From positions 1,178,001 to 1,242,000 of the forward strand of contig JAIXMN010000001.1 in the NCBI GenBank assembly GCA_025716815.1: a stretch of 64,000 nt of DNA, in the 5' to 3' direction. A program made the position numbers and the translations under genes. The notes below the pieces were generated by a model. That model did no database searches. It was not told where the DNA came from and saw only the letters and a program-made list of their open reading frames with translations. The DNA comes from Dichotomocladium elegans (lineage: Eukaryota > Mucoromycota > Mucoromycetes > Mucorales > Lichtheimiaceae). Below are positions 13,295 through 59,493 of the stretch, piece by piece; the stretch's first letter is position 1; each line of letters begins with the position of its first letter.

Positions 13295-14400
13295 TTAACT
13301 GCCATAATGGGAACAACTGTGATCCGACTGCTCCTCCACCTTCGGAGCTGCTCCGGTTCTTGGGAGTACATCCCTGTCCCTTCTCTTCTTGATAATGGAG
13401 ACTCCTACGCCATCCGTTTCAAGTGTACCACGAAATCGAAGTACTCCATTCTCTGAAGATTTGAGAGCTTTCGAATAGAAATCGGTGACCTCATCCCATC
13501 CGCCAGGATAAGGAAATTTTTTGGTCCATGAGCGACCCAGAATGTTTTGCCATATGATTTTTGCGTCAATCATTATGTATGACGGAGACCATGGCCGACG
13601 AAGAGGGAAACAGGCAAATTCAGGCAGTTGAAGTCGCTCAAAAAGGAGAGCGAGCTGGTAAAAGGCTGCCATATGTTGGATTGGATGAGCCTTTGCATCG
13701 TAGTAGATGCTATCGTTGTCAAAGACGTGGGTACTGGTGTAGGCATCGAAAATTGGCCGGATGGCGTCGAAAGCTTGCTGAAGATAAGCTGGGTCGTCGG
13801 GGATGTCATCTCTGGATACGTTTCGACGAGCTACAATCTGCTTAAATGTTGTTGCGGGTGTAATGATTGTCTCTCGGATGCGTTGACTGATTGTGTCGGG
13901 TCCAGACCTTGGCCAATCAGCTGCTCTTCAAGCTCCTCGTTCCGCTGTCGAATATTCAGCAAGGTTGGCCGAATCGCATTTGAATATTATTGGTGTAAGC
14001 AGCAACGATCTTGGCGCCTCCGTAATTTGCACATTGCTGGGAGTATGGAAAGGATGGTCGTTCATAATTTGTATATAAGAGGTATGTCGTCGAGTATTCA
14101 TCAATCAGATTCCGGCATCGAGTCGTTTCCTCGCCACAGCCACGTCGTTTTTAATCGATCAATGCGAGCCAGACTTCAGCAAAGAATCTGTCGTTGACAA
14201 AAGCCCTGATGTCAAAATTTTCATTGGCTTGGAACTCGTGGAGAAAAATGTATTTTGATAGTGCGTATGCATGCATTGTCGTTATATTCAAGGTCGACCA
14301 AATGGTTCAACTTTTCGCGGTACTCTTGTCTCCAGCCTATGATGTCAATGGATGATGGTACGATTGCGGGTTTCGGGTCGATGAACGTTCATACTTGGAA
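13295..14400 (-). pseudogene. Truncated Fanzor (TnpB-like) gene, copy F2
   Basis: Reading the minus strand from about 14.4 to 13.3 kb gives, with several breaks, the N-terminal two thirds of the protein found at 57-59.2 kb. Matching blocks include HAYALSKYIFLHEFQ, DIRAFVNDRFFAEVWLALID, SQQCANYGGAKIVAAYTNNI, DDPAYLQQAFDAIRPIFDAY, DSIYYDAKAHPIQH, FACFPLRRPWSPSYIMID and the LETDGVGVSIIKKR motif. The catalytic RuvC core and zinc finger are missing: the copy stops where the inverted mariner copy A begins. Premature stops and frame shifts occur in the 5' half. It differs from the 57-kb copy at about half of its residues, so it is an old or divergent lineage and not a recent duplicate. Confidence 0.8.
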
Positions 14401-17860: not shown

Positions 17861-18868
17861 TTAAACATTTTCGTCATGAAATGCCCACGCTGTCTTTTTT
17901 GGCGACACATGCGCAGACTTGACGTACAAGTCATTATCGGGCGGTCTCTCCTAGAAAATGATAATACAGTAGGCGGTGAATAAAAGGACGAGCCAAGGAT
18001 GTCTTGATGTCTGTGTATACCTTTTTTGTACAGCTTGAAAGCATGGACTGGATGGATAGACACACCTGGGCCACTGTTTGCACCGGGGACCAGTCTCTGT
18101 AGAGGATGTTTAGGCATATATGACCATTAGAATAGATCTAGTCATGAGTATCATGACGGCTTGGTAAGTAGAGTCAAAAGATATAGAGCGACTATTAGGC
18201 GTATTACACTAGTATGGATATATGAGGGAAATTGAATCGGATATCTCGCGAGTGTATGAAACTTACTGAGGGTGGAGCGGGACTCTGGGCTGCACAAATA
18301 AAACCTCTGGGGATTCTAATGGATACTCAGGTGTAAATCGGAACTAGATCAAAGAGAGCGAGAAATAAGTAGGATGCACGGGCATATGACTATATGTTAT
18401 CCGTTTGTATTCACTTCAAGGTCAAATTCTTCGCCCTGCATAGAAATGTTAGCCTTTTCATTCTTGTCTTGTTTGAATAAGTCACCCCTTACTTCCATAC
18501 TTTCCTCATATAAAGTCCCTGATGCTCCAGATATCCGCAGCTTCCACCTATTCACACATATACGCAAGCGCGGGGATGAAGCATGAGACCAGTGACAACC
18601 AGCCCTTCCTTCCTCCCCAGCGCTGTAGCGATAGGGCTGGAACTTTTCATTACCTTTTGAAGTCGTTTGCTTCCTCTATCGATACGCCCTCTGGAGGATT
18701 TGCGCCCAGATCTGGTTGTTCGTCGGCGAAGGAGGAGGAACGGAAGAAGAGAAAGAGAAAACGCTCATTCTTAGTCCATGAATTTCATGCACTTGTCGCG
18801 CTGGCACATTTTGAAGGTATACCACGTAATTCCTTTGTCAATCTTTTTGTGTAGATTGGTCTGGCCAT
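17861..18868 (-). CDS. Ubiquitin-conjugating enzyme E2, UBE2W/Ubc16 type
   Basis: Visible exons: 18868-18823, 18711-18654, a 55-nt exon (GTGGAAGCTGCGG...), a 21-nt exon encoding GEEFDLE, one starting FRFTPEYPLESPEV and ending at 18267, a 1-nt exon at 18208, one from 18137 (IYSNGHICLNILYRDWSPVQ), and the last, ending at the TAA at 17861. The protein reads MARPIYTKRLTKELRD, NPPEGVSIEEANDFKRWKL, SGASGTLYEE, PLHPH, IYSNGHICLNIL (catalytic Cys), LSSCTKK, ERPPDNDLYVKSAHVSPKK, the order and spacing of UBE2W. UBE2W enzymes attach ubiquitin to protein N-termini. The HPH motif forms only if the single T at 18208 is an exon. A longer N-terminus is possible through an upstream exon at 19068-18978. Confidence 0.85.
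18208..18208 (-). other. Putative 1-nt exon of the UBE2W gene
   Basis: On the minus strand CA|gtaagt opens a 58-nt intron that ends catactag. A single T follows, then gtaata opens a 70-nt intron that ends gactag, then ATC. Splicing gives CA+T+ATC = His-Ile, restoring both the frame and the conserved HPH-IYSNGHICL segment. Both introns are of normal size and canonical. Confidence 0.65.
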
Positions 18869-56995: not shown

Positions 56996-59186
56996 TCATC
57001 GCTGTTGGCGACCTCGTCCTAGTCCTCTTCGTCTCACCCTTCGCTCGTCGGGCTCTGGTGATCTAGCCCTTCTTGCTAGGCGCCTGTCACCACCCGCAGA
57101 TGCTCGCCGAAACCTTTCCGGGACCATGCCATCGGCCCGAAAACTCCTGAGAATATGTATCATATTCAGGCAGGCCGCCATATCACGGTTCCACAATCGC
57201 TGCCGAGGAGCGCCCTCTGCCATGCCTGCTGTACAGTTTTGATTTGAGCATCTGCACAGAATAAGCGACATTAGATTATCATTATTGTTTCAAACTCCTC
57301 CGCGAATAAGGTTTCATACCGTAGCAGGCCATGACAGATAACGTTTGGATTCTCGGCTCTTCGATAGGGGCGTGGGTTGGGTACCCTCCGGAACGTAGAA
57401 AGGCTCTCGGTCTCGCACGCGGGGCAACATCTGCTGGTCTTGAATTCGTCGATCAAGTATACATCAAAGCGACGTTCGCCTTGCTTGAGAAGTCGCCGGA
57501 ATCCAACACCGCGGATTGGCTCGTGATATTGAGTGTTCGGGGCAGACCAATTAACCCATCACAAATACCGCGTTGGGGCCAAACTTGTTGATCAGACCGT
57601 CCCTCAGCTTCTCATCTGCTCGTTGTTTGTTGATGTACGACGATAGACGGAGCTTTCGGAAAAGAGGTTGGGGGATCGGCATTATGGGTGGCGGTATTCG
57701 CATAGAAGTTCTCGAGAACTTGGGACACTTGGGACCGGACAAGCAGGAAGCGGTCATAATCGGCACGATCCAAGCTGCGGGAATGCTCGCCAACCATGCG
57801 TGCCCCGGCATGCACGACTTCAGGTTCCTCATTCTTGAGCCTCTGCAACAACCTGCGGTACTTGTTGGTCTTGCGCACCTTGTCCTGACAAGGTTTGGTA
57901 TATCGGAACGTCAGACGGGCACCTCGCTCCGGCCTGGAATTCTCTGAGACGCAGAAAAGGAGGTCCCTCCTCCCAGGGTCGACGGTGACGCACCTACCAG
58001 CAATATTCTGGTGTTCCTGTAATGTCAGCATGCTGACATAATTGGTCTCCTTCTCGACTCCTCAGTACTTTGCTCCGTATGTTGGTCGTTGATTGTTCGT
58101 CCTCTTGAAAAAAGTGACGCCTACTCCATCAGTATTGATTGTGCCATGGAACTCGATCGTTCCGCCTTCTTGGGGTCTGAAAGCACGAGAGTCGAGGTCC
58201 GCAACCTCTCCCCACAGAGCCAACTTCTGGCTGATATCGTGTCTTGGCCTCTTTAGAATATGCTGGATAAGAATCGTGGTGTCGATCTGCATATAGCAAG
58301 GGGCCCAGGATCGGCGAAGTGGAAAACATTGGAAGCTGCGAAGACCATTGCGTTGGAAAACATAGGCAAGCTCTATGAACGGCCGGAAGTGGTTGGCTGA
58401 ACGCGCCTTGGCGTCGTAGTAGATGCTTTGTTTTTGGAACTGGTACCCTTGGGTATAAGGATCCAAGACCGGTTGGATCTGGTCGTACGCTTGCCTGAGG
58501 AAAGCTGGTTCCGCCGGAATGACATCCCTCCGCACACCTCGGCGGGCAATGGCGAGCTTGAAGCCTGTGGCATGGCGAATCATGGTGTCGTAAATATCCT
58601 GGCGGATTTGCTCCTCGGTCCAGCCGAGTGCGTCCAGTTCACGTCTCCTCGCCGCTTTCCGCTCTCGAATGTTCAGGAGAGCATTCAACGCGCGCCGAAG
58701 GTGCTGCCCGAACCGCATGTTGATATTGTTGCAGTATGCAACAAACATCTTCTTACCTTCAAACGCAGAGCATTGCTGGGAATTCTTGAGCTGTGGCCGT
58801 TGGTACTGGGTGGCCTCGAGGTAATCCTCCAAAAACTCGCCGATCAGAGCTCGGCACTCGCCGGAAAACCCCCGGGTTGGACGAACTCGCTTGTCGAGCA
58901 TGGAGAGCCACACCTCAGAGAAGAACTTTTCGTGCAGGAACTGTTGGAGGTTGAAGTCCGGCTCGCGTGCGCGCTTACGTAGGAAGATGTACTTGGCGAA
59001 GCTGTACGCATGGGTTGTTGTCGCATGGACAACAGCGACCAAGTCCATCAACGGTTGGCGGTAGGCGGGGTTCCAGCGGATGCCTCGTATAGAGGTCTTG
59101 ACACCTAACATATGGTCAGGAGGCCTGAGGTTGGGTTGGGCAGGGTTTACACCCCTCCTCCTGGTGGGGTCGACAGGTTGTTCCAT
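56996..59186 (-). pseudogene. Fanzor (eukaryotic TnpB-like RNA-guided nuclease), nearly full length, copy F1
   Basis: The ATG at 59186 opens MEQPVDPTRRRGVNPAQPNL. Family blocks in order: THAYSFAKYIFLRKRAREPD, FSEVWLSMLDKRVRPTRGFS, CSAFEGKKMFVAYCNNINMR, FQCFPLRRSWAPCYMQID, FHGTINTDGVGVTFFKR, GRCVTVDPGRRDLLFCVSE (RuvC-I Asp at 57980), LFRKLRLSSYINKQRADEKL, VMG then NWSAPNTQYHEPIRGVGFRR (probable RuvC-II Glu at 57522), YLIDEFKTSRCCPACE and, after a 68-nt intron (57319-57252), CSNQNCTAG (zinc finger) and LWNRDMAACLNMIHIL (RuvC-III Asp). An Arg-rich tail ends the protein. Three lesions separate the frames: a TGA at about 58062 and single extra bases near 57668 (C run) and 57549 (GGGTTAATTGG). Catalytic residues are intact, so decay is recent, or the lesions are assembly errors. 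Confidence 0.85.
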
Positions 59187-59493
59187 GTCTTCACCAGTAG
59201 AGGGCTGTGATATTATCTCTTAGCACAAATCTTCTAGTCATGTCTTATTCCAGAAGCCTTACCGTCTAATGTCGGAATGTGCTTTTGTGTTCTCCGCCTT
59301 GGGTTGTATGGGTTGTGTAAGGTGAGAGAGATGTGTAATACGAGTATGTTTGTAACGGGTTTTAGGATACCCAAGTGGTAAAGAAAACGGCTTGGTCGAA
59401 CCTCATTATTTTATAGTAAATCAAGGTCCCCGTTCCAACCTGCGTGGATGGGGTACTATGAAGTGCATATCATATAATAAGCAAAAATACTCA

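Follow-up and report, generated by a model that had tools for sequence, protein, structure and literature searches.

How does the UBE2W gene of Dichotomocladium elegans encode an intact enzyme when two of its exons, joined directly to each other, do not share a reading frame? The gene is located on the minus strand (18868 to 17861) of the window, i.e. the stretch of 64,000 nt analysed here, which belongs to an assembly of 39.4 Mb in 122 contigs. The initial annotation proposed that a single T, flanked by two short introns, forms a separate exon. We report that the T at position 18208 is, with high probability, a constitutive single-nucleotide exon of UBE2W, as predicted from the genomic sequence; this is the best reading because it gives the exact family sequence using canonical splice sites and introns of normal size.

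Methods

Splicings between 18343 and 18021 were enumerated with zero, one or two introns, restricted to GT-AG introns no shorter than 35 nt. The reference introns (n = 23) were placed by hand from exon borders and comprised 18 from six genes of the CCT chaperonin and, from UBE2W, the five other introns, with the tested sites excluded. An ab initio approach to intron training, using 200 kb of contig sequence and the window, was dropped as it gave 14 introns, or 82 of implausible make-up.

Three homolog searches gave 201 different proteins (the best 120 of 528 matches, the best 120 of 166 and 16 of 16). A 159-aa version of the D. elegans protein, based on another intron 1 donor (see below), was the query in the first of these searches, in the search for a second gene copy and in the Mucorales alignment. 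By source genus, 29 of the 201 were counted as genome annotations from genera that we take to be members of the Mucoromycotina; three species are present twice.

Broken gene models of relatives were decoded by deriving, from neighbouring residue pairs in the model, which normal-frame residues the DNA could encode; translations and not DNA were used. The models of Lichtheimia ramosa, Umbelopsis PMI_123, Endogone and Cunninghamella echinulata were first picked by eye, each with its best-fitting reference, and all 16 broken models were then subjected to an unbiased scan in both shifted frames.

Results

Gene model and family assignment

The spliced translation of eight exons, including the single T, gives a stop-free protein of 154 residues. 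Exon 1 (18823..18868) begins with the ATG at 18868, and its MARP.. start aligns with Mucorales UBE2W. Intron 1 (18712..18822, 111 nt, GTATAC..CAG with the donor at 18822) yields RDLGANPP, near RDLAANPP of the relatives, and was preferred to the donor GTGCCA, which gives the 159-aa protein. Exon 2 (18654..18711) is followed by intron 2 (18548..18653, GTAATG..TAG, 106 nt) and exon 3 (18493..18547). The C-terminal end of exon 3 carries the four residues ESME (18493-18504, minus strand), which have no counterpart in the intact aligned relatives, as if the donor had been shifted 12 nt downstream. Intron 3 (18436..18492, GTAAGG..CAG, 57 nt) has a CTAAC 14 nt upstream of its end; exon 4 (18415..18435) encodes GEEFDLE and is separated by intron 4 (18344..18414, GTGAAT..TAG, 71 nt) from exon 5 (18267..18343), which reads FRFTPEYPLESPEVLFVQPRVPLHP followed by CA and ends in phase 2 (...CAC CCT CA at 18267). 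Then come the predicted intron 5 (18209..18266, GTAAGT..TACTAG, 58 nt, phase 2), the predicted exon 6, i.e. the lone T (18208..18208; A on the plus strand), which fills the third position of the second His codon in HPH, and the predicted intron 6 (18138..18207, GTAATA..GACTAG, 70 nt, phase 0). Exon 7 (18021..18137; IYSNGHICLNILYRDWSP..., starting ATC TAT TCT AAT GG) holds the active-site Cys, and intron 7 (17951..18020, GTATAC..TAG, 70 nt) precedes exon 8 (17861..17950) with the stop codon.

The protein has the features of the UBE2W family: HPH replacing HPN, the active-site Cys and the downstream Trp (HPHIYSNGHICLNILYRDW). Its Pfam domain is UQ_con, the closest solved structure is that of UBE2W (2mt6, E 6.7e-48), and a small protein tree places it with Lichtheimia hyalospora (support 99/93), to whose protein it is 91% identical. 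In the available part of a study on the family, HPH is described as unique to Ube2w, with the second His positioned like the Asn of HPN and placed to stabilise the oxyanion hole (PMC4630614).

Elsewhere in the window, the open reading frames 13295-13927 and 58062-59219 (both on the minus strand) are divergent, with 46% identity over 171 residues, share a TDGVGV motif near the end and have no Pfam match at E 0.001. Both resemble what would remain of a repeated and perhaps mobile gene, for which we would guess a Fanzor/TnpB-like origin.

The reading frame and the single T

Joining exon 5 (...CA, 18267) directly to exon 7 (ATC-TAT, 18137) gives HPQSILMVIYA followed by a stop, i.e. 94 residues, while retaining the T at 18208, between TACTAG and GTAATA, gives HPH-IYSNG and the intact 154-aa enzyme. 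The T is bounded by an upstream AG and a downstream GT, each of the two halves (58 and 70 nt) is usable as an intron, and the base is needed for both the frame and the conserved protein. The broken frame of the direct join and its repair by the T were thus correctly described in the initial annotation.

Between 18343 and 18021 we found 16 single-intron and 223 two-intron solutions that are in frame. Both VLFVQP and SNGHICLNIL are retained by seven of the 223, and in two of these seven HPH is retained as well; none of the 16 single-intron GT-AG solutions has both HPH and IYSNG. HPH together with IYSNGHICLNIL is thus retained by two of the enumerated splicings only, one with the 1-nt exon and one with a 16-nt exon (HPHVIRLIIYSNG, donor GTCGCT), and the exact family sequence HPH-IYSNG comes, among the enumerated GT-AG splicings, from the 1-nt exon alone. 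The in-frame 16-nt exon is absent from the initial annotation, but it does not yield the family sequence. With the 1-nt exon the predicted junction string is CACCCTCATATCTATTC, and junctions reading CACCCTCA-ATC or CACCCTCAG-ATC would contradict it.

Splice-site quality and chance occurrence

The 23 reference introns have a median length of 68 nt and range between 55 and 123 nt. The undivided 129 nt is longer than all of them and the halves of 58 and 70 nt are typical, which agrees with the earlier description of canonical sites flanking introns of normal size. Ranked against the leave-one-out scores of the 23 introns, the sites of intron 5 are strong (GTAAGT 23/23, TACTAG 22/23), and those of intron 6 rank 7/23 (GTAATA) and 17/23 (GACTAG); GTAATA is thus a donor below average, and a T preceding the donor is found in two of the 23 reference introns. 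Branch-like YTNAY motifs are present in both halves and also in the uncut 129 nt, and do not discriminate between one intron and two.

By chance, a YAG-Y-GTR that leaves two halves of 50 nt or more should occur 0.008 times per 129-mer (264 kb of genome, both strands), and one that leaves halves of 40 nt or more 0.014 times, i.e. about 1%; the looser AG-Y-GT is expected 0.04-0.07 times. For AG-Y-GT with both sites equally good, two places were calculated for the 528 kb scanned (window included), of which one is 18208 itself.

One of the CCT genes (L036, contig C47) has a GC-AG intron (ATG|GCAAGT...TTTTTTAG), at the place where the similar gene L037 has GTGAGT.

The residue at the junction in related fungi

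Among the matches listed, six of the 29 Mucoromycotina models read HPH-[IV]YSNG (one of them IYTNG), seven HPQ-[IV]YSNG and 16 neither. A windowed test scored the HPH junction as disrupted in 13 of the 29 models, compared to 10, 8, 5, 5 and 3 of 29 at the other five junctions, where the 10 and the 8 are inflated by truncated N-termini. In the other 172 proteins among the matches listed, H is present in 169, the motif as searched is absent in three and Q occurs in none.

The HPQ annotations (P0001, P0002, P0003, P0007, P0009, P0010 and P0014) include the nearest named relative, L. hyalospora. Keeping one flanking G at the D. elegans locus gives an intact protein with exactly HPQ-IYSNG, and a mapper or gene model unable to accommodate a 1-nt exon might write HPQ: with G as the flanking base on either side, an extra base forced into the junction would produce Q. 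Judged from the protein models, the seven Mucorales HPQ annotations are probably annotation artefacts. Three Mucorales-like sequences counted among the 172 (P0005, P0008 and P0013, on contigs of 945 to 2347 nt with the source code lgn, which we take to denote assemblies of public sequencing runs) read HPH and were taken to be transcripts. Among named relatives, Mucor is nearest to two of them (for P0005 in a tie with Cokeromyces), and L. hyalospora is nearest to P0013 (73%).

Decoding of broken gene models

The L. ramosa model fits the -1 frame of GEEFDLEFRFTPEYPLESPEVLFVQPRVPIHP, the exon before HPH, at 32 of 32 positions, such that one DNA satisfies both frames (7/32 for the other shift); the -1 score was reached by 0 of 2000 shuffles, and 21 more codons precede IYSNG. 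Umbelopsis PMI_123 fits the -1 frame at 24 of 25 positions (3/25 for the other shift; 0/2000 shuffles) and continues with IYSNG, as if CA were joined directly to ATC. The matches for Endogone (20/25, -1 frame, 0/2000 shuffles, then IYSNG) and for the second C. echinulata annotation (6/6, 22/2000 shuffles, then VYSNG) are weaker.

In the unbiased scan the -1 reading was clear at the junction in two of the 16 models, L. ramosa (score 32) and Umbelopsis PMI_123 (20), where shuffled proteins scored at most 9 (12 shuffles each). The Endogone model (P0122) has its N-terminus in the -1 frame (13), i.e. frame trouble, in the model or the assembly, that extends beyond the UBE2W junction, and the short C. 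echinulata match did not stand out. No clear -1 reading at the junction was detected in the 12 further broken models, among them those of Rhizomucor, Mucor flavus and Pilobolus. In some models the detour taken corresponds to one of the in-frame alternatives with a single intron: C. blakesleeana has LESPE|VYSNG and U. isabellina HPQ-DWSP. On our reading, gene finders would have accepted the wrong frame so that the junction would work.

CAY followed by a donor-like GTNMGN is found in Umbelopsis vinacea (HPH-VRLAAAAD, where the model ends) and in one Mucor circinelloides model (HPH-VRTEF..); the D. elegans gene, when its second intron is read through, gives HPH-VIRL.., which has the same shape. 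The M. mucedo model (HPH-DWSP) fits an ordinary CAY|GT exon end; in Mucor the second intron is probably present and the upstream one missing. A short query for unspliced genomic fragments gave 16 matches, of which mainly that of U. vinacea was useful, and the viral contigs and bacterial/archaeal genome contigs searched contained no UBE2W-locus DNA of relatives. Taken together, the translated models suggest that the 1-nt structure is probably common to L. ramosa and Umbelopsis, perhaps by shared descent, and that it is possibly present in Cunninghamella and Endogone as well.

Alternative explanations

The seven HPQ annotations could also be taken at face value. A single 129-nt intron with its sites shifted by one base (CAG|TAAGT...CTAG|ATC or CA|GTAAGT...CTA|GATC) would keep one flanking G and hence give an intact protein with HPQ-IYSNG as annotated in the seven relatives, and in some of these, known from protein annotations, a genuine Q with CAG|GT is possible. 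Such an intron requires TA-AG or GT-TA ends although a perfect GT and a perfect AG are present one base away; moreover, Q is absent from all 172 other proteins among the matches listed, P0005, P0008 and P0013 read HPH, and the two C. echinulata annotations disagree, one having HPQ and the other being readable as CA joined to GT(Val), albeit as a weak match. We therefore regard a shifted single intron as improbable. The chance that the genome truly has one base more (CAGGTAAGT, or TAG|TATC), lost through an assembly or sequencing error, appears smaller still. One added base would suffice for ordinary splicing, and CAGG would give HPQ as in L. hyalospora, but an equal frame conflict was decoded from the models of other genomes (L. 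ramosa and Umbelopsis), and a suitably placed YAG-Y-GTR would have a chance probability of 1%. In addition, of six CCT chaperonin genes taken from the assembly, five were checked and need no frameshift: four are open across all introns over 5754 nt, and in the fifth, which at first seemed broken, the frame resumes after an apparent unlisted intron. The frameshift-free CCT genes and the decoded relatives together make a base error at the UBE2W joint unlikely.

Use of the 16-nt exon (18208-18193, donor GTCGCT) would be canonical and in frame, giving HPHVIRLI-IYSNG; we give it very little credence as it inserts five residues between HPH and IYSNG, and nearly all of the 120 relatives listed lack such an insert (the exceptions being the Pilobolus and Umbelopsis AD052 models), and as its donor is unlike those of 22 of the 23 reference introns, which start with GTA or GTG. 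Finally, since splicing without the T leads to a frameshift and a stop, the gene might be a decaying pseudogene, or ribosomal frameshifting might act on a T-less mRNA. The remaining exons are all intact, the protein is 91% identical to that of L. hyalospora and a search of the whole genome found no second UBE2W copy, the matches on other contigs being weaker, while frameshifting would call for a signal placed exactly at the intron junction in several genera, without known reason; both ideas can be given next to no weight. The predicted 1-nt exon thus remains our preferred reading.

Discussion

Mechanism and origin

Exon definition is unnecessary for short introns whose recognition takes place across the intron. 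The 58-nt phase-2 intron (CA|GTAAGT...TACTAG) and the 70-nt phase-0 intron (T|GTAATA...GACTAG) would each be excised as an ordinary short intron, with recognition across its own length, and the leftover T would complete CAT, the second His codon of the HPH active-site signature. Removal is likely to be sequential because both sites can hardly be bound at once across one nucleotide: with the first intron gone, CAT|GTAATA would serve as a normal donor in the next step, which makes sequential splicing the simplest course.

The second intron is probably the counterpart of a phase-0 intron of ordinary type that follows CAY in Mucor-like genes; the first would be an extra phase-2 intron one base upstream. 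The extra intron may have been gained upstream of the older phase-0 intron; alternatively, loss of a base from the end of the exon may have been compensated by a cryptic exon that restored the frame, a scenario put forward for Fusarium in the accessible text of PMC12940212. The CAY|GT end of Mucor-like genes fits intron gain upstream, or an upstream intron that was later lost precisely. We lean slightly towards a history in which the 1-nt exon was fixed before the Mucorales/Umbelopsidales (perhaps Endogonales) split and kept, while lineages resembling Mucor and Phycomyces lost the upstream intron precisely, CA|intron|T|GT turning into CAT|GT.

If real, the exon would mean that recognition across introns tolerates an exon without recognisable length, located in a catalytic motif and perhaps present subphylum-wide, and it would explain the recurring wrong UBE2W models, and probably the HPQ variants too, in public fungal proteomes. 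If it is also old and shared, it would be a very old fungal 1-nt exon completing a catalytic His codon, a false HPQ signature would now be present in several reference proteomes, and lineages with and without the extra intron would form a natural series for studying splicing order and intron gain.

Comparison with known single-nucleotide exons

Few single-base exons have been published. Among the literature matches listed, in a coverage that leaves out most subscription journals, there was no 1-nt exon in UBE2W or in the Mucorales, and we found one fungal nuclear case. The initial annotation named Arabidopsis APC11 as precedent, which holds, and knew of none in such a fungus, which is outdated since February 2026, when a 1-nt exon with read evidence was reported for Fusarium CYP621A and, according to the part of the paper available, claimed by its authors as the first fungal case (PMC12940212). 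As far as that part goes, the two are alike in being nuclear fungal 1-nt exons flanked by short introns, in a conserved motif and with nearly all gene models wrong (PMC12940212). The joint intron is 139 nt in Fusarium, more than twice the given median of 56 nt, compared to 129 and 68 nt in D. elegans (PMC12940212). CYP621A is described there as an ascomycete P450 gene with G as the exon base (AG-G-GT), confirmed by RNA reads (PMC12940212), whereas the D. elegans gene is mucoralean, encodes a ubiquitin-conjugating enzyme and has T as the predicted exon base.

Arabidopsis APC11 likewise has a constitutive, frame-restoring single base between two introns in a small gene of the ubiquitin system, but, in the portion of the report at hand, its joint intron is 422 nt, the base is A, and cDNA and mutated constructs prove it (PMC4674806). 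The plant VPS55 and APC11 1-nt microexons are, as outlined in the available sections of PMC8831610, deeply conserved in land plants and missing from annotations, as suggested here for UBE2W; in some lineages the base was absorbed into a longer exon, as would be the case in Mucor UBE2W, and RNA-seq and RT-PCR back the plant microexons (PMC8831610). A 1-nt exon also appears in the literature, as far as excerpted, for placozoan mitochondrial cox1, and the term is used in an Ophiostoma mitochondrial-genome paper (PMC12308204). Stwintrons, as characterised in the excerpts available, resemble the UBE2W case in that two successive splicing reactions take place within one fungal intron stretch, and differ in that the donor, branch or acceptor of one intron is interrupted by the other and no exonic base is left; removal of all 129 nt breaks the UBE2W frame, so that one base must be kept. 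The 1-nt exon as a kind is therefore already known, and its D. elegans UBE2W member appears to be new.
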